Position numbers and translations under genes: made by a program. The notes under the pieces are model-generated. The model was not told the DNA's origin, did not search any database, and saw nothing but the letters and a program-made list of their open reading frames with translations. From Dehalococcoidia bacterium UBA3254 (GTDB lineage Bacteria > Chloroflexota > Dehalococcoidia > Dehalococcoidales > UBA3254): 6,365 bases of DNA. Where the stretch lies: positions 1 to 6,365 of the forward strand of contig DEUU01000344.1 in the NCBI GenBank assembly GCA_002362735.1, given 5' to 3'. Shown here piece after piece: positions 1 through 6,365 of this stretch (position 1 is its first letter; the number at the start of each line of letters is the position of its first letter).

Positions 1-1847
1 ATGGCAGCGGCAATTTTTCCGGGGATACGGAGGTCGGGTTGTATCAAGCAAATATTTCTGATGACGCCGAGTATAGCGATTCTTTCCAAGATCTTGATGA
101 TATAGAGGATAGAAATGAGATATTTTTTAAGCTGAACCAATTCTCTTCTGTTTATCAAGTCACCTCGTTTATGATGCCTGGCGACCAAACCATCAACTTC
201 AGCACAGGATGGAGCCAGGCCAGCAGAGCTTGCCGCAGTGATTCAAGTATGTATCTGCAAGAGTCAGATAGGTTTGCCACAAAAATTGACAAGAGCAGCA
301 AGATTATCCTGGAAGATGATGGTCTTGATGCCAAGATAAACTCGCAATTTGAAGGGACTTCCGATCTTTATTACACGTCCGGAGCCAGCAAATACAGGCA
401 GATGCTGAGCGGAGAATTCCAGAGCGAAAACGAAATTTCTTACGGCTCATCTATTTCTGCGACGGTGGGAACCGGATTTGCAATCATCGACAGGCAATTG
501 GCTGAAGAAGGAAATCAGAGGTCCTATGAACATGGAAGCGGAAGGATCGCATTAAAAGAAAAGATTGGAGCCGACGATATCGAGAAGGCTCTGGATCTGA
601 CCTACCAGCCCGTGCTAATACAGATAGCTCCGGGGAGATGGATAAACCAATCCCAGAAATGGAGTGAAGGTTTTGTCAATGAAAACTGCGATTCATTTTC
701 CATAAGAGAAAAATTGTCCAGTTTGAATAAATTAGAAAGAACCACAACGGCAGCCTACACTGGGAGCTTCAATTCCAAGCTTAGATTTTCCGGTATGGGG
801 GAATTCCGCATCAAGGACACCAACGCCACGATCTCTGAGCAATATTCGGGCAATTTCACTATGAACCGGAGCCTCTTCCTGAAAGGGACGCCCAGATTCA
901 ACAAGGCCCACATTTCCGTGTCAAAGGAATTGACCATCGATCCAGGAAATAGCGAAATAGCAATTTATAATATAACGGTTTTAAACGATGGCAATACCTT
1001 ACTTGATCCCATCTTTGTCATAGATACATTTCCCACAGGAACTACTTTCCTGGATTCGTCTATCGAACCAGTTGAATTAGAAACTAGATACGCTAATTGG
1101 TCAGTTGAGCGATTAGCCCCTGGGGACTCCACAAGTTTCGAGCTGGTGCTCGGTGTTTACAGAAAGATCGAAAAGCTGAGCAATCGGATCAAGGCCACTG
1201 GATTCTATATTGATGCATCGGGCCTGACAAAGAAAACTACATCAAGCTATAATTGGACTTTGCCATACGACGGAATGAGCAGCAGATTAGACTACAAAGA
1301 GATATCTCTATCCATGAAAGCTTTTCAAGATCCAGAAGATCCCCGCCTCATCAAATACAAAATGACAGTAGATAACCAGGCTGATTATGATATATCCGCA
1401 GACCTAATTGCTACAATTCCCCCGGAGGGAAGGTTCTCTGATTCGTCTCCCAGGTCAAAGAATATCTCAGAAGAAAATGTGTCCTGGAATTTTAGCTTAG
1501 ACGCTAGAAGAAAGAAGATATTCAACCTTGAAATCGAGTTGAATAGGTCCGGCATAATCAATTCCCGATCTTTATTATATGTCTCTGCCGCCGCCGGAGG
1601 GTCTCCTCAGATTATCCAGGCTGCTTCATCAATTTTGATCGCAGGAGATGATGACAAATCCATCGTCATCAGAACCATTGACGACTGGCTGCCGGGCGAT
1701 TTATTGAACGAAAATCCCAAAGGGATTTGTGGATCGGGGGCATGTCCCTGTCTGTTTCCCCTCGACCGGAAATACTCTAATCTAACATCAATCAAATATA
1801 TTTCTGATAATAACATGTACGGACCGGATTTGGGATGCATATGTTGA
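1..1847 (+). CDS. Large secreted/cell-surface protein with DUF11-like repeats and Cys-rich tail (5' partial)
   Basis: The frame is open to the left edge (first whole codon at nt 3, Gly-Ser-Gly-Asn), so the true start and any signal peptide lie outside. The TTG at 39 has no claim to be the start. About 614 residues are visible, numbered from nt 3. Residues 1-300 are Gly/Ser/Asp-rich, probably beta-rich, with GSG motifs at the start and near residue 178; I recognise no family there. Residues ~303-404 look like a DUF11 module: an N-[IV]-T-V-x-N-D-G-N stretch, a D-T-F-P-x-G-T-x-F motif and an L-A-P-G-[DE] turn. Residues ~435-545 form a second, more divergent copy. The tail has five Cys (576, 581, 583, 612, 614: CGSGACPC, then a terminal CIC) and no transmembrane anchor. 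About 15 N-x-S/T sequons suggest an extracellular glycoprotein. DUF11 modules are common in archaeal surface proteins and adhesins. The role is not determinable here; a structural envelope or adhesion function is inference. Confidence 0.88.
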   Translation, partial: GSGNFSGDTEVGLYQANISDDAEYSDSFQDLDDIEDRNEIFFKLNQFSSVYQVTSFMMPGDQTINFSTGWSQASRACRSDSSMYLQESDRFATKIDKSSKIILEDDGLDAKINSQFEGTSDLYYTSGASKYRQMLSGEFQSENEISYGSSISATVGTGFAIIDRQLAEEGNQRSYEHGSGRIALKEKIGADDIEKALDLTYQPVLIQIAPGRWINQSQKWSEGFVNENCDSFSIREKLSSLNKLERTTTAAYTGSFNSKLRFSGMGEFRIKDTNATISEQYSGNFTMNRSLFLKGTPRFNKAHISVSKELTIDPGNSEIAIYNITVLNDGNTLLDPIFVIDTFPTGTTFLDSSIEPVELETRYANWSVERLAPGDSTSFELVLGVYRKIEKLSNRIKATGFYIDASGLTKKTTSSYNWTLPYDGMSSRLDYKEISLSMKAFQDPEDPRLIKYKMTVDNQADYDISADLIATIPPEGRFSDSSPRSKNISEENVSWNFSLDARRKKIFNLEIELNRSGIINSRSLLYVSAAAGGSPQIIQAASSILIAGDDDKSIVIRTIDDWLPGDLLNENPKGICGSGACPCLFPLDRKYSNLTSIKYISDNNMYGPDLGCIC

Positions 1848-1855
1848 TCAAATGC

Positions 1856-4498
1856 CTAGCTCCTTCGGCGCCATAATGCAGCTAATGCAAGGCATCCAAG
1901 AGAGGCGAGCCATCCCATGGGTGCTGCAACGGGAGCTGCAGTTGCATTGCCGGCTGGATGAGTGCCAGAGCTGGAGGCATTTGTTTTGTCAGAAATCGTC
2001 TCGGAGAATTCTTCCGCAGCGCCCAGGTAGGTATCGGTCACATTAAAAAATCCGCCAAATACCTGGATTGCGCCCATAACATTCTCTACTTGAATCTGCA
2101 GCGCATATCTACCAGGCAATGCTGCCAGCCGAACTGCATGGGGCTCTAAAATCTCTAAGCTGCCCTGCAGGGTATGATTAAGGCCGTCCGGCAAAGGCGT
2201 TCCCTCTATTATTTCAAAAAATTGGACTTTGCTCACTCCGGGCACTATTTGAATGAATTTATTGCGGGCGGTCTCGTTGGCCATCATAGCATCAAAATTC
2301 ATACCGACATTCAATTTCCCGTATTCTTCGCGCGTTATGTAGTAAATCGATCCGCCATCAAAGATCGCGGCAATCCATCCGGAGGAATCAAACTTGATAC
2401 TAACCTGCACAGAAGGCGAAGTGTCATTGAGATAGAGCAATCCTCGCAAGGTGCTGCCGCCAGGGTCTAAAATAGAGCTGTTATCATCGCTGAGCTGTAA
2501 TGTGGTCGCGCTCCAATTCCAGGAAAACCTCCAGTGATCGCCCGTTCCCTGCGCGAGTTCGGTTATGTCTCTGGAGAAGACGGTTCTGTTTCTGAAATCC
2601 AGAATATCAGCTCTTACCATTTGAATCTCTGCCGCCCGGGCTATCATCGAAAAGTTTGCAGGTTCAAGAGGTGATGCATTGTTAGGTATTTCAATCTGGG
2701 AGAGCTTTGGCTTGGGAACAACATTGCTTAACGTATATAGATAATACCGAAGCTCATTGTCATCGGCTACGCGAATATTCATTCCTGGCAAAATAGCGAC
2801 GGTAGAGTCGCGATTGAGGGTTACGTTTTCATTGTTGACCATGGCGATTAGTCTGGGTTGAATGGAAACAATCTCCATTTTTCCGAAATCAAGGCCCTCC
2901 TCTATCGGTAGAATATACTGATCCGATATCTGGAAAATGCCGTCAATGACTGCAAAGCGCTCCGACTCGATTTCAAAAACATTATCCACGTGCGCCATTA
3001 TTATCGGCATATCCTTGACTTCATTAATATCCTTTTTGTAAACGTATGTGGTCTTTGATTTGACGACAGAGCTGTTCACTTGAATCCCATTCTTCAGAAG
3101 CCGCAGAAAGATGCTATCATTTCCCAAATCCCTGATCTGCATCTCATAGCCTTCCGCAAGTGTGTAATTTCCCAGTGCGAATACTCCTTTAAGCTGGCGA
3201 TCCATGAGCACTAATCCCAGGTATCCATTCTCCAATAGGCTCTTATTGGCTTTTATTCCATCCTGCGTGGTATCGTATCCAGCGAAAAACTGGTTGCCAA
3301 GAAAGCTGATAACAAAATAATTTCCCCAGCGATCAAATTCAAATTGCTTTGATTGAATAAACGAAGTATACTGAAATCCTTCTTGAATAGCGGTTTTATT
3401 TGCCACATCAATATTCAATTTTGTGGGGATAGATACGATTCTATTCTCGACTCTGTGGAGGATCATAGATTCAGAGCCCAGCACATTCTCAGAGTCAAAG
3501 TAAAATCCGCTAAAATTTTTAAAATCCCATTTTGCTGCGGCGTACGAATTATAGATGCCGAAATTAATTGGGATAAATGAACTGGAATTAAATTTAGGAC
3601 CCCGTACATCATGCAGGCCGTAATTGAAAATACCTCCCTCTGGATAATAAACTAAATCGGGAGAATCAAGTATGACAATTAGCAGATTGCCCGTAAGAGG
3701 AATTATCGAATCTCTGGTGAGTTGAAGTGCTTTATCATTTTGGAAGACAAGGCTGTCCTCATTGAGTGCTGTAAGCTTCATGTTGCCGAGCTTTCCTCCT
3801 TCAAAGAGCTTAAAACTCGGGATGTCACTGATCTGAAAAATCGCATCTATCTGGGCAAATCCTGAATTCGGACTTTTCATGGCATTGGCCAGATGAACCA
3901 TAATCACTGGAGTGTCATCTTTTTTGTAGACGAAGGTCCCTTCACTGCTTGCCACTGACGAATGTACAATTTTTCCATTCTTAAAAAGGACAAATAAGGT
4001 CGCATCATTCTTCCCGGAAATCTCTTTAACTCCAAGAACATAACCTTCTTGAAGAGTTAATGTGTTGTTATAATTCAGATTATGAATCTCATTTTCGTCA
4101 AGCAGCACTTTCCTCAGTTCTCCTTTTCCGAGAACGTCAATCTCTTCGGTAAATGAGCTATGCGGATAGCCGGCCAGGTAGAGCTGGCCAAGGAATGCTA
4201 CAGCGTTATAGTTCCCCCACCGTTTATATTCAAACTGCCTTGACCATGCTTGAGATGTATAGACGATCTTGCCCTTATCTGCTCTTCTTTCTTCGACATC
4301 GATGCTCAGTTGTTCTCTGCCCTGATCCGTGTCGAGATCATAGAAGAACCAGCCGAAATCATCTGCATGCCAAATTCCATCGCCGCCGCTGAACTGGCCT
4401 CGGACAAAGGTAGCTTCAACCGGATCTTGCGCTGAAGAGCCTAAATGGAGCAAGAGAATTAGCACCGATATTGCCACGCCCGATGCAACCCAGATCAT
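1856..4498 (-). CDS. S-layer family protein with tandem S-layer duplication domains and C-terminal anchor
   Basis: This is a secreted structural protein of the cell envelope, 880 aa from ATG 4498. Residues 1-23 form a signal peptide (hydrophobic core, cleavage likely after SSA). Two homologous S-layer domains (the Methanosarcina S-layer/DUF1608 type) follow at ~41-290 and ~320-590. Paired landmarks are FEYKRWGNY / FEFDRWGNY, FLGQLYLAGY / FLGNQFFAGY and IDAIFQISD / IDGIFQISD. Residues ~593-820 are beta-like and unrecognised, so the protein exceeds the roughly 670 aa of the two-domain Methanosarcina protein. The end has a Ser/Thr/Ala/Gly linker (832-858), a hydrophobic helix starting Pro-Met-Gly-Trp (860-863) and a terminal RRRS, a layout like archaeosortase-processed anchors. 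About 20 N-x-S/T sequons suggest N-glycosylation. An upstream in-frame ATG at 4528 would add ten residues. I prefer 4498 because it has a GGTGAT ribosome site at good spacing and gives a standard signal peptide. Confidence 0.93.
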   Translation of the reverse strand: MIWVASGVAISVLILLLHLGSSAQDPVEATFVRGQFSGGDGIWHADDFGWFFYDLDTDQGREQLSIDVEERRADKGKIVYTSQAWSRQFEYKRWGNYNAVAFLGQLYLAGYPHSSFTEEIDVLGKGELRKVLLDENEIHNLNYNNTLTLQEGYVLGVKEISGKNDATLFVLFKNGKIVHSSVASSEGTFVYKKDDTPVIMVHLANAMKSPNSGFAQIDAIFQISDIPSFKLFEGGKLGNMKLTALNEDSLVFQNDKALQLTRDSIIPLTGNLLIVILDSPDLVYYPEGGIFNYGLHDVRGPKFNSSSFIPINFGIYNSYAAAKWDFKNFSGFYFDSENVLGSESMILHRVENRIVSIPTKLNIDVANKTAIQEGFQYTSFIQSKQFEFDRWGNYFVISFLGNQFFAGYDTTQDGIKANKSLLENGYLGLVLMDRQLKGVFALGNYTLAEGYEMQIRDLGNDSIFLRLLKNGIQVNSSVVKSKTTYVYKKDINEVKDMPIIMAHVDNVFEIESERFAVIDGIFQISDQYILPIEEGLDFGKMEIVSIQPRLIAMVNNENVTLNRDSTVAILPGMNIRVADDNELRYYLYTLSNVVPKPKLSQIEIPNNASPLEPANFSMIARAAEIQMVRADILDFRNRTVFSRDITELAQGTGDHWRFSWNWSATTLQLSDDNSSILDPGGSTLRGLLYLNDTSPSVQVSIKFDSSGWIAAIFDGGSIYYITREEYGKLNVGMNFDAMMANETARNKFIQIVPGVSKVQFFEIIEGTPLPDGLNHTLQGSLEILEPHAVRLAALPGRYALQIQVENVMGAIQVFGGFFNVTDTYLGAAEEFSETISDKTNASSSGTHPAGNATAAPVAAPMGWLASLGCLALAALWRRRS

Positions 4499-4508
4499 CT
4501 TTATCTCT

Positions 4509-4514
4509 ATCACC
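4509..4514 (-). promoter_or_regulatory. Ribosome binding site of the S-layer gene (start-deciding)
   Basis: On the minus strand GGTGAT lies 10 nt before the ATG at 4498 and matches the anti-Shine-Dalgarno end of archaeal 16S rRNA. It falls inside the coding frame that would begin at 4528. The 4528 ATG has only AGGGA directly abutting it, with no usable spacing. This favours 4498 as the start. Confidence 0.6.
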
Positions 4515-4579
4515 AATTGCAAGACCATTCCCTGGTAAGATATGGCCTACTGAAGGTTAAGAAGAGTTGGATGTTGTTG

Positions 4580-4827: not shown

Positions 4828-4867
4828 TGGGCAGTGTAACGAATTGGTATGAAAATCACCTCATTGA

Positions 4868-6097
4868 CTAAGCAGGAACATTGATTATCGTATACCCGGA
4901 CCGCTCCAGTGCCCTTATCATTGACCCTTCCCTGGCTTTTGAGTTTCTCTTAAAAACAGCTTCAGCTCCTTCATCCACATAAGCCTCGCCGGTAGTTAGC
5001 ACTCTGTATATATCACATAAGATACGATGTCCTAGGGCAATTAGGGCCCTCTTCTTTCCACGTCGTTTGGCAATGCCATTATAAATAGCGCTATAGGCAG
5101 AGCCTTTGGTTCTAGAAGCGGCCCAAGCAACCTCTGTGAGTATGCCTTTGAGGAATCCATTACCTTTTCGAACCTTTTCGCTTTTCTTTACTCCAGCACT
5201 CTCATTATTTCCAGGACACATTCCAGCCCAGGAAGAGAGATGGGCCTCATCTGGGAACTGAGACATATTGGTTCCTATTTCAGCAATTATTGCGGCCGCA
5301 GAAGTCTTACTAATCCCTGGCAATGTCTGGATGAGGCTGTTCTCCTTTTGAAAAAGGACCATACGCCTCTGGATCTCTTCATCTAATTCCCGTATTTGCT
5401 CTAACTGAAAAGCTATGTTATCCAAGTGGAATCTGAGAAGGAACCGGTGGTGTTCAGTTACTCGACCATTGAGCGCTTCAACAAGCTGAGGGACTTTGCT
5501 CTTTAGTTTGCCGCGAGCCATCTCGGAGATTTCTTCCCTGGAAAGCTCATCTTTTTCCAATAGGGATTGTATCATCTTCATAGAGGATTTGCCGTCTATC
5601 TTAGAGACAACAGAACCTAGCTTGATATTGGCATCTTCCAGAACCTTCTGGAGACGGTTCTTCTCCGAGGTCATAATTTCAATATGCTTCCTTCGCGTCC
5701 TGTTTAGGTCCCTCAGTTCCCTGATTTCCCTAGGCGGGATAAAACTCTTTGGTATCAAACCGTTGCGCAGCAAGGTGGCAATCCACTGGCTGTCCTTGAC
5801 ATCGCTTTTCTTGCCGGGAACTTTCTTGAGATACTGAGGATTCGCCAGGACTATATCAAAGCAATCTTCAAGGATATTGAAGATAGGTTTCCAATACACT
5901 CCTGTGCTCTCCATCGCAACCGCTTCTACTTGATTCTTTACCAACCAATCTTTTAGTTTTAATAGATCTGATGTCATAGTGGAAAAAGTTCGAATCTCGA
6001 ACTTCGGAGGCTTATCCAATGATCCTTTAGCTATGCATGCCTTAATCATGGACTTATGAACATCCAGACCGCAGCAACTTTCCAATATCGGTTGCAT
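4868..6097 (-). CDS. IS110-family transposase (DEDD, bridge-RNA-type recombinase)
   Basis: This 409-aa recombinase moves the element through a circular intermediate; characterised IS110-group relatives are guided by a bridge RNA. The N-terminal RuvC-like domain (residues ~8-160) has all four acidic residues: D12 in GLDVHK, E63 in MESTG, D99 and D102 in KSDVKD. Residues ~130-255 are charged and helical, probably a coiled coil. The C-terminal Transposase_20 domain (~255-345) has LPGISKTSAAAIIAEIG, then WAGMCPGNNESAG, where S300 is at the likely catalytic serine, followed by a Lys/Arg/Gly-rich stretch. No frameshift or internal stop is seen, and the length fits IS110-type members. The ATG start is supported by AAGGAGG seven bases upstream. 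The gene is probably functional. Confidence 0.97.
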   Translation of the reverse strand: MQPILESCCGLDVHKSMIKACIAKGSLDKPPKFEIRTFSTMTSDLLKLKDWLVKNQVEAVAMESTGVYWKPIFNILEDCFDIVLANPQYLKKVPGKKSDVKDSQWIATLLRNGLIPKSFIPPREIRELRDLNRTRRKHIEIMTSEKNRLQKVLEDANIKLGSVVSKIDGKSSMKMIQSLLEKDELSREEISEMARGKLKSKVPQLVEALNGRVTEHHRFLLRFHLDNIAFQLEQIRELDEEIQRRMVLFQKENSLIQTLPGISKTSAAAIIAEIGTNMSQFPDEAHLSSWAGMCPGNNESAGVKKSEKVRKGNGFLKGILTEVAWAASRTKGSAYSAIYNGIAKRRGKKRALIALGHRILCDIYRVLTTGEAYVDEGAEAVFKRNSKAREGSMIRALERSGYTIINVPA

Positions 6098-6104
6098 ATT
6101 TATG

Positions 6105-6111
6105 CCTCCTT
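6105..6111 (-). promoter_or_regulatory. Strong ribosome binding site of the transposase
   Basis: On the minus strand AAGGAGG is followed by the 7-nt spacer CATAAAT and the ATG at 6097. It is a near-perfect Shine-Dalgarno and fixes the start. It lies about 20 nt after the 3' edge of the candidate structured leader RNA. Confidence 0.8.
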
Positions 6112-6130
6112 GCTATGAGTGAAGCAACTG

Positions 6131-6261
6131 CTGATGATCTAAATTTGGTACGCGTGCCACATTGAAGGGGCAACATTCATGGGTGCTAATTGTTGCCTGG
6201 TCAGTTTTTCTGACGGGGTTAATACGAACCGCCAATTTCGATCGACCAAATCACTCATCAA
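6131..6261 (-). ncRNA. Candidate bridge RNA / structured leader of the IS110 element
   Basis: By eye, the minus-strand RNA closes on itself. UUGAUGA (6261-6255) pairs with UCAUCAG (6137-6131, one G-U). After a 3/5-nt internal loop, AUUUGGU (6251-6245) pairs with ACCAAAU (6149-6143). Inside are two hairpins: GUCAG-A5-CUGAC (6214-6200) and GGCAACA/UGUUGCC (6197-6191 with 6175-6169) with a 15-nt loop. IS110-group elements encode the bridge RNA 5' of the transposase on the same strand, and its loops pair with target and donor DNA. Position and fold agree with that role, but I could not assign target- and donor-binding loops. It could instead be an mRNA leader controlling transposase expression. 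Confidence 0.45.
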
Positions 6262-6275
6262 TAAGAAGATTGAAC

Positions 6276-6288
6276 ATTATTAGATATA
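6276..6288 (-). promoter_or_regulatory. TATA-like box upstream of the IS110 leader RNA
   Basis: Minus-strand TATATCTAATAAT (6288-6276) is the best TATA-like sequence ahead of the transposase. The usual 25-nt spacing puts the transcript start near 6260, at the 5' edge of the predicted fold. A weaker alternative, AAATTTAGA (6145-6137), would give a short leader of about 20 nt that skips the structure. Confidence 0.4.
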
Positions 6289-6312
6289 CCTATTCATAGC
6301 CTCATTTTCATT

Positions 6313-6346
6313 CCCATAGGTGACCCCTTGGGTCATGGGGGTTTTT
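6313..6346 (+). terminator. Hairpin followed by a T tract, plus strand
   Basis: TGACCC (6321-6326) and GGGTCA (6330-6335) form a perfect 6-bp stem with loop CTT. It extends through CCCA (6313-6316) with TGGG (6336-6339) around a TAGG bulge, and is followed by GG and TTTTT (6342-6346). It looks like an intrinsic terminator on the plus strand, yet no plus-strand gene precedes it in the window. It may instead be a structural feature near the left end of the IS. Confidence 0.35.
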
Positions 6347-6365
6347 CTGTAAATTCTGGTGTCCC

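Follow-up and report, generated by a model that had tools for sequence, protein, structure and literature searches.

Probable bridge RNA of an archaeal IS110-family element carrying its target guides in right-then-left order upstream of the recombinase gene

The contig DEUU01000344.1 of the assembly named Dehalococcoidia bacterium UBA3254 (the window, 6,365 nucleotides in its whole length) carries an insertion sequence (IS) of the IS110 family, read on the minus strand, with an intact gene for a DEDD recombinase and a structured leader RNA ahead of it. Computation mapped the ends of the element, the fold of the RNA and three segments of the RNA that match DNA at or beside those ends. We conclude that the leader RNA is, with high probability, the bridge RNA (also called seekRNA) of an archaeal IS110-family element. 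The guides of its target-binding loop run right-then-left, and the RNA nevertheless lies upstream of the gene. The coordinates of all features are collected in Table 1.

The recombinase consists of a RuvC-like domain (PF01548) followed by PF02371, scoring 83.7 and 72.2 bits against cut-offs of 29 and 21.3, and its fold matches that of IS621/ISCro4. E63, D99, D102 and S300 lined up with IS621 residues in a printed alignment and were invariant across 39 aligned proteins; D12, which we take to complete the set on the strength of the GLDVHKS motif, was nearly invariant. The full DEDD set and probable catalytic serine claimed in the preliminary description of this DNA were thus confirmed. Of 8,000 candidates scored, the closest proteins were 94% identical, and the two of them that carried names among the matches listed belonged to Methanotrichaceae. 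In the recombinase tree the window grouped with a Methanothrix copy (support 100/95), and the element probably comes from an archaeon near Methanothrix. On viral contigs, relatives were found at 47-48% identity only, and a first scan of the genome contigs with one sequence as the query gave no match.

The ends were mapped by comparing leaders and trailers. Left ends (LEs) of the archaeal relatives open with AC-NNN-CATG and right ends (REs) finish with ATTTTCATAYC-AA. Two copies in one genome (L095 and L096 in G020) share 1,531 identical bp, corresponding to the element plus a few shared target bases. When the L095 element was excised at the mapped ends, the junction was spanned by an open frame of 250 amino acids, in which a piece of 69 residues matched the PHP domain (PF02811, E 2.3e-10). 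The L096 junction also lay within a long open frame (406 amino acids), of which the piece tested had no Pfam match, and the remaining four rejoined sites gave no long open frame. Judged from the two rejoined frames, insertion therefore looks scarless at the L095 site and was probably so at the L096 site. The stretch from the left tip to the sub-terminal repeat holds, in most archaeal homologues, a palindromic or nearly palindromic dyad of differing letters (TGACCC..GGGTCA, TGGCCC..GGGCCA or TGCCT..AGGCA at that place), and the dyad at 6321-6335 is possibly a recombinase binding site.

The preliminary description had placed a structured RNA at 6131-6261 (minus strand) in the leader of the transposase gene (open reading frame 4868-6097). 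This location holds, and so does the claim of stable folding: the segment reached -38.7 kcal/mol against a shuffled mean of -26.75 (z -3.27; 2 of 200 shuffles did as well). Of the features described there, the split closing stem and the internal hairpins exist in the single-sequence minimum-energy fold and do not amount to the conserved fold. On the hand-corrected alignment of 8 archaeal homologues, that fold paired in 235 of 312 alignment cells, and 3 of its 39 pairs were compensatory. Its closing stem was poorly kept (outer half 22/48 cells, inner half 57/80) and was rejected as a conserved helix, as was the GUCAG/CUGAC hairpin (23/40 cells); the GGCAAC/GUUGCC hairpin was better kept (43/48 cells). 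The segment was also drawn too short, as an end at 6131 cuts off the 3' strands of two conserved helices, P1 and P4, and the RNA extends to about 6113.

What the 8 homologues share is a fold of five helices, P1 to P5. In the hand-corrected alignment, where the P2 strand of three rows was moved by one column, 234 of 256 cells were paired and 11 of 32 pairs were compensatory, including a change of P2 from GGUC/GACC to GGGC/GCCC in L093/L094; without correction 89.1% of cells were paired. The covariation of the uncorrected alignment was 0.268 against a shuffled mean of 0.175, none of 500 shuffles reached that value, and sliding the fold along the alignment gave at most 0.124. The pair-type count was not above shuffles (396/500). 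RNAalifold recovered most of P1, together with P3, P4 and P5, when no structure was supplied. The longer segment, 6113-6261, folded with a z of -2.40, a level equalled by 5 of 200 shuffles, and P1 does form in its minimum-energy structure. No known Rfam family was found at the RNA; within the window only two weak matches to small nucleolar RNAs occurred elsewhere, with E up to 5. That all homologues share a TATA box at a set distance was considered and rejected, as only some of them have one.

Matching between the open loops and DNA was examined by permutation, and the number of permutations as good is given with each count. Related elements are not fully independent (several Acidobacteria, for example, share a target), and these counts are to be read as evidence, not as exact probabilities. 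The left target guide (LTG), taken as the 10 nt preceding CUG in the RNA, was compared with the 10 nt immediately outside the left end. Agreement was found at 41 of 48 variable positions in 8 elements (14/200,000 permutations), at 94 of 132 in 22 archaeal sites (mean 44.1; 0/200,000) and at 48 of 78 in the 13 sites outside the set from which the fold was built (1/200,000). Omission of L095, which shares its RNA with L096, left 89 of 126 (0/200,000). The match extended to bacteria, with 247 of 312 positions in 39 archaeal and bacterial elements (mean 196.7) and 184 of 240 in the 30 bacterial elements alone (mean 149.3), each with 0/100,000 permutations. In one Bacillus genome, ATAAAAAAC adjoins the left end at 4 of 5 sites and recurs in the RNA.

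The right target guide (RTG), on the other side of the same loop, matches as its reverse complement. In 37 elements it agreed with the right flank at 96 of 148 positions (mean 63.9; 0/100,000); the archaea alone gave a weaker signal (23/32; 105/100,000). The window itself scored 4/4 against its right flank TTCG in the better of two registers. In 33 elements chosen for LTG matches of at least 6/8, the two LTG bases past the core were compared with the two that open the left end, and 62 of 66 positions agreed (mean 33.3; 0/100,000).

It might be argued that the flank resembling the LTG belongs to the element and is carried along with it, so that the match would reflect shared ancestry and not target choice. 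In keeping with this, both G020 copies have an identical 8-9 bp adjoining the left end. Two findings speak against it: the PHP-domain frame at L095 is restored when the flanks are rejoined with those base pairs retained, and where the RNA differs between elements, the flank differs too and follows the guide. We regard this explanation as very improbable.

In the donor-binding loop, the left donor guide (LDG) is a fixed 8-nt stretch of six nucleotides and a two-base core (AA or AG) that equals the right tip of the element. The letters of tip and guide change together. Archaea, for example, have TACCAA or TATCAA, Deltaproteobacteria and Syntrophaceae have GGTGAA and GGGGAA, Bacillus has CAGAAA and Acidobacteria have TAGGAG; in the Bacillus copies tip and guide are each ACAGAAAAA. 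Matches of 7 or 8 of 8 letters occurred in elements from nine phyla, as labelled in the tree. Own matches of 41 elements were better than all 100,000 permutations in a loose test, in which several elements, among them the window, had their best match away from the right tip; the best 9-mer match of the window lay elsewhere by chance. In a fixed register, the guide agreed with its own tip at a mean of 7.1 of 8 letters, against 3.75 for the tips of other elements, among ends that had been picked at 6/8 or more. The remaining segment of this loop is presumed from its position to be the right donor guide (RDG).

The strength of this matching between guides and DNA, together with the covariation of the fold, led us to assign the RNA as the bridge RNA of an IS110-family element, in agreement with the preliminary description. 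In the proposed arrangement, the RNA would form a three-way junction closed by P1, with two guide-bearing loops: a target-binding loop composed of P2, RTG, P3 and LTG, and a donor-binding loop composed of P4, RDG, P5 and LDG. Target and donor would be joined scarlessly at their common AA core, where the cut presumably lies; the chemistry of strand exchange is likewise presumed. We infer that the RNA is expressed and that the element may be active at present.

Table 1. Features of the IS110-family element and its leader RNA in the window. All features lie on the minus strand. LE, left end; RE, right end.
Feature	Position	Strand	Basis or remark
Whole IS element, IS110 family	4846..6342	minus	1,497 bp, from 6342 (first base of LE) to 4846 (last base of RE); ends kept in relatives and in the L095/L096 two-copy comparison
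IS110-family DEDD recombinase, 409 amino acids, intact	4868..6097	minus	Open reading frame
Bridge RNA (probable), about 149 nt, ends approximate	6113..6261	minus	Covariance model R1 matches 6110-6261; covariation
P1 5' strand, closing stem	6251..6258	minus	5/11 P1 pairs compensatory, 72/88 cells paired
P1 3' strand, closing stem, outside the segment first described	6115..6122	minus	Alignment of 8 homologues
P2 5' strand, base of target-binding loop	6244..6247	minus	2/4 pairs compensatory after hand correction
P2 3' strand	6199..6202	minus	Alignment of 8 homologues
P3 stem-loop within target-binding loop	6215..6233	minus	48/48 cells paired, 1/6 pairs compensatory
P4 5' strand, base of donor-binding loop	6192..6197	minus	Pairs with 6123-6128; 48/48 cells, 1/6 compensatory
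P4 3' strand	6123..6128	minus	Alignment, also RNAalifold
P5 stem-loop within donor-binding loop	6156..6171	minus	34/40 cells paired, 2/5 pairs compensatory
RTG, 5' side of target-binding loop	6234..6243	minus	Reverse complement matches right flank
LTG, 3' side of target-binding loop: 6 nt + core AA + AC	6204..6213	minus	9/10 identical to left flank
Presumed RDG, conserved UUAGnACCCAUGAAUGU segment	6172..6191	minus	Position only; near-invariant in archaea
LDG: 6 nt + core AA	6145..6152	minus	7/8 equal to RE tip in the window
Left target flank, outside the element, matched by LTG	6345..6350	minus	Flank-guide comparison
Core dinucleotide AA, left junction	6343..6344	minus	Register set by LDG/RE alignment; cut position presumed
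Core dinucleotide AA, right junction	4844..4845	minus	Presumed from LDG/RE register
Right target flank TTCG, matched by RTG	4840..4843	minus	Flank-guide comparison
Sub-terminal inverted repeat in LE, ATGAAAAT	6304..6311	minus	Invariant in 8 archaeal LEs
Sub-terminal inverted repeat in RE, ATTTTCAT	4849..4856	minus	Same in relatives with RE available
Short LE dyad TGACCCAAGGGGTCA	6321..6335	minus	By eye from LE sequences
TATA-like octamer, 27 nt ahead of the RNA, possible archaeal promoter	6281..6288	minus	6/8 letters of TTTATATA

Several observations weigh against the assignment as a bridge RNA of this layout. No transcript was seen. The LTG misses its flank (3/6 variable positions or fewer) at the archaeal loci L105, L109, L113, L120 and L122, the RTG scores 0 or 1 of 4 at L007, L032, L043, L048 and L065, and related elements that have a target in common are only partly independent in the guide permutations. 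A by-eye comparison of RDG pairing gave no convincing match across phyla. P2 was not recovered by RNAalifold and required the hand shift in three rows, and the GGCAAC/GUUGCC hairpin, which competes with P4, may represent an alternative state. Taken alone, the conserved fold of 6110-6261 is far less stable than the minimum-energy one (-21.5 against -42.4 kcal/mol); open guide loops, being large, would be expected to cost energy when neither protein nor DNA is bound. In the recombinase, the residue following the aligned serine is Ala (A301) in all 39 proteins, where the published SG motif has Gly. Finally, the first 8 nt of the 5' guide, read as sense, fit the left flank weakly above chance (1,013/50,000).

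The last point would suit an IS110-type bridge RNA with the ordinary guide order of IS621, left guide 5' and right guide 3', as would the upstream location and a recombinase length within that of the IS110 subgroup (395-455 amino acids, in the available text of PMC11187229). The role tests point the other way. The 3' guide in sense fits the left flank and the complement of the 5' guide fits the right flank (0/50,000 in each test), and the two main tests with the roles exchanged as in IS621 gave no signal (36,665 and 44,811 of 50,000). The IS621 order is accordingly most unlikely here, and the right-then-left order of the bridge RNA was retained.

A covariance model, R1, was built from 8 homologous leaders including that of the window. 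Of 82 other recombinase loci it matched 56 at E <= 0.01 and 65 at E 1, and almost every match directly adjoined the recombinase gene; among 237 genomes of the archaeal class it matched 30. In the window, its archaeal relatives and most bacterial loci sampled, the RNA occupies the left end, upstream of the gene; in 12 bacterial loci, from Deltaproteobacteria/Syntrophaceae and Bacteroidota, it lies downstream. Seven of these 12 were included in the 38-row recombinase tree and formed one clade (100/99), consistent with a single change of location whose direction is not given by the unrooted tree. That the leader is instead a structured 5' untranslated region or attenuator governing translation of the transposase, with incidental flank matches, would agree with its place directly upstream of the start codon and its stable single-strand fold, but it is highly improbable given that 12 bacterial relatives carry this RNA on the downstream side of the gene and that its loops covary with DNA outside the element, which a leader would have no reason to do.

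The larger element sets above derive from an alignment (A5) of 68 sources, namely the window, the 8 first archaeal loci, 23 loci from archaeal genomes and 36 of the 65 other R1-matched loci; near-copies and the weakest matches were not entered. It held 69 matches, 49 of them with a recombinase gene close by, and L108 was dropped before every count. From the 49, the LDG permutation used 41 elements, the RTG and fixed-register tests 37 (the right ends of L033, L065 and L043, probably misplaced, were kept in), the all-phyla LTG test 39 and the core-adjacent test 33. The 22-site LTG test omits L117, for which the script took a second, more distant left end, and L124, where the RNA is cut off after the guide; L106, L110, L114, L118, L119, L123, L125 and L126 had no guide or left-end landmark. 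Guides were located by hand-set patterns in L103, L107, L109, L112, L116, L117, L121 and L124. L095 and L096, identical in RNA, were counted as two sites, and L004 was omitted, its leader being identical to that of L001. Nine rows with stops or odd lengths, three of them with a downstream RNA, were skipped in the tree, and L103, L105, L107 and L108 were left out of it. For L085, a partial gene match led the script to the label 'down'; its RNA is actually upstream.

The element fits neither published group cleanly, being IS110-like in RNA location and protein length and IS1111-like in guide order and in its 8-bp sub-terminal repeat. It has the upstream RNA of the IS110 group and lacks the guide order of ISEc21/IS621 and the absent or short sub-terminal repeat; compared with the IS1111 group, it has neither a downstream RNA nor a recombinase of 330-350 amino acids (PMC11187229, available text), the latter being a comparison of length only (409 amino acids) with no IS1111 transposase aligned. 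Sub-terminal inverted repeats of 7-17 bp are given for IS1111 in the available text of PMC11208160. The target loop of IS621/ISCro4 runs left-then-right (PMC11208158, text available), whereas that of the present element runs right-then-left. It also differs from IS621/ISCro4 in that no separate 5' stem-loop was found and both loops are closed by P1, in its core (AA or AG in the element and its relatives, CT in IS621/ISCro4), in its sub-terminal repeat (8 bp against 2-3) and in its 409-amino-acid recombinase. The two-base match beside the core resembles the handshake guides of IS621, as far as PMC11208158 describes them in the text available.

The IS1111-group seekRNAs of ISEc11, ISPa11 and ISKpn4 share the order of a complement to the top strand followed by one to the bottom strand (PMC11187229, same portion), and that group also shares sub-terminal inverted repeats with the present element; in contrast, the RNA described here is upstream in archaea and most bacterial loci sampled. 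ISEc21, the one IS110 member tested by Siddiquee and colleagues, likewise draws its guide RNA from the upstream non-coding region, but with the bottom-strand match 5' of the top-strand match, the reverse of the present element; exceptions in RNA location are mentioned in the same portion of that paper (PMC11187229). Durrant and colleagues presented structures of three IS110-group and three IS1111-group elements, with ISAar29, ISPpu10 and ISHne5 in Extended Data Fig. 10c, and a move of the RNA between element ends is described there (PMC11208160, available portion). ISArsp3 of Arthrobacter, so named in the record annotation, has a transposase 41% identical to ours and appears to share the present layout, with LTG-, LDG- and RTG-type matches in the same order (9/10, 7/8 and 6/7; one element, best of many, no statistic attached). 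R1 does not match it, so its fold has diverged or is different. From the ISArsp3 layout, the right-then-left order with an upstream RNA may therefore already be in print, drawn in the structure figure of PMC11208160. Titles and abstract openings in PMC, a search with figures and most subscription papers outside its scope, yielded no archaeal or differently ordered bridge RNA beyond PMC11187229.

It is likely that this IS110 branch of about 400 amino acids carries a mirrored bridge RNA upstream, whose target loop has the right guide on its 5' side and the left guide on its 3' side; judged by position, the donor loop is arranged alike. RNA location would then be independent of guide order, the cassette being in effect inverted relative to the element ends, with one change of location in a bacterial clade and the order unchanged. 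If so, this is a third arrangement of programmable recombinase RNA, ranging from methanogens to Bacillus and Acidobacteria. An upstream RNA with right-then-left order conflicts with the way in which RNA location and guide order have been paired in print, and bears on the evolution of bridge RNAs and on guide assignment in new IS110 elements. Work is under way to turn bridge RNAs into programmable recombination tools. Those elements that the available text of the 2024 papers names as experimentally tested are bacterial; an archaeal element now has computationally mapped ends, a probable core, three guides and a defined native target with ACAGAA as its left half, AA as its core and TTCG as its right half.

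The locus L121 (RNA 1501-1641, minus strand) has an equal layout with a recombinase only 32% identical, a target guide of 8/10 and a donor guide of 9/9. At L018, the first recombinase match is followed directly by a partial second one that has another bridge RNA (2937-3077) ahead of it, as in tandem elements. L116 (RNA 1501-1654, RNA strand) and L122 (RNA 1501-1653) consist of left end, RNA and right end, with no transposase found between. Their right-end tips fit their own donor guides and lie about 60 nt (by eye) and 310 nt past the RNA, respectively; they are candidate non-autonomous elements that retain only the guide RNA, and related fragments occur in 12 of the 237 archaeal genomes. In several archaeal genomes, at L103, L105, L107, L108, L109, L106, L110, L114 and L123, the bridge RNA stands beside a broken recombinase gene or none was found within 1.5 kb.

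In the window, the element lies directly past the 5' end of a gene in the same orientation (1856-4528, minus strand), which encodes an 890-amino-acid S-layer protein (PF07752, E 6.5e-119). The plus strand encodes, at 3-1847 and convergent to this gene, a DUF11 protein whose frame is open at the start of the window.
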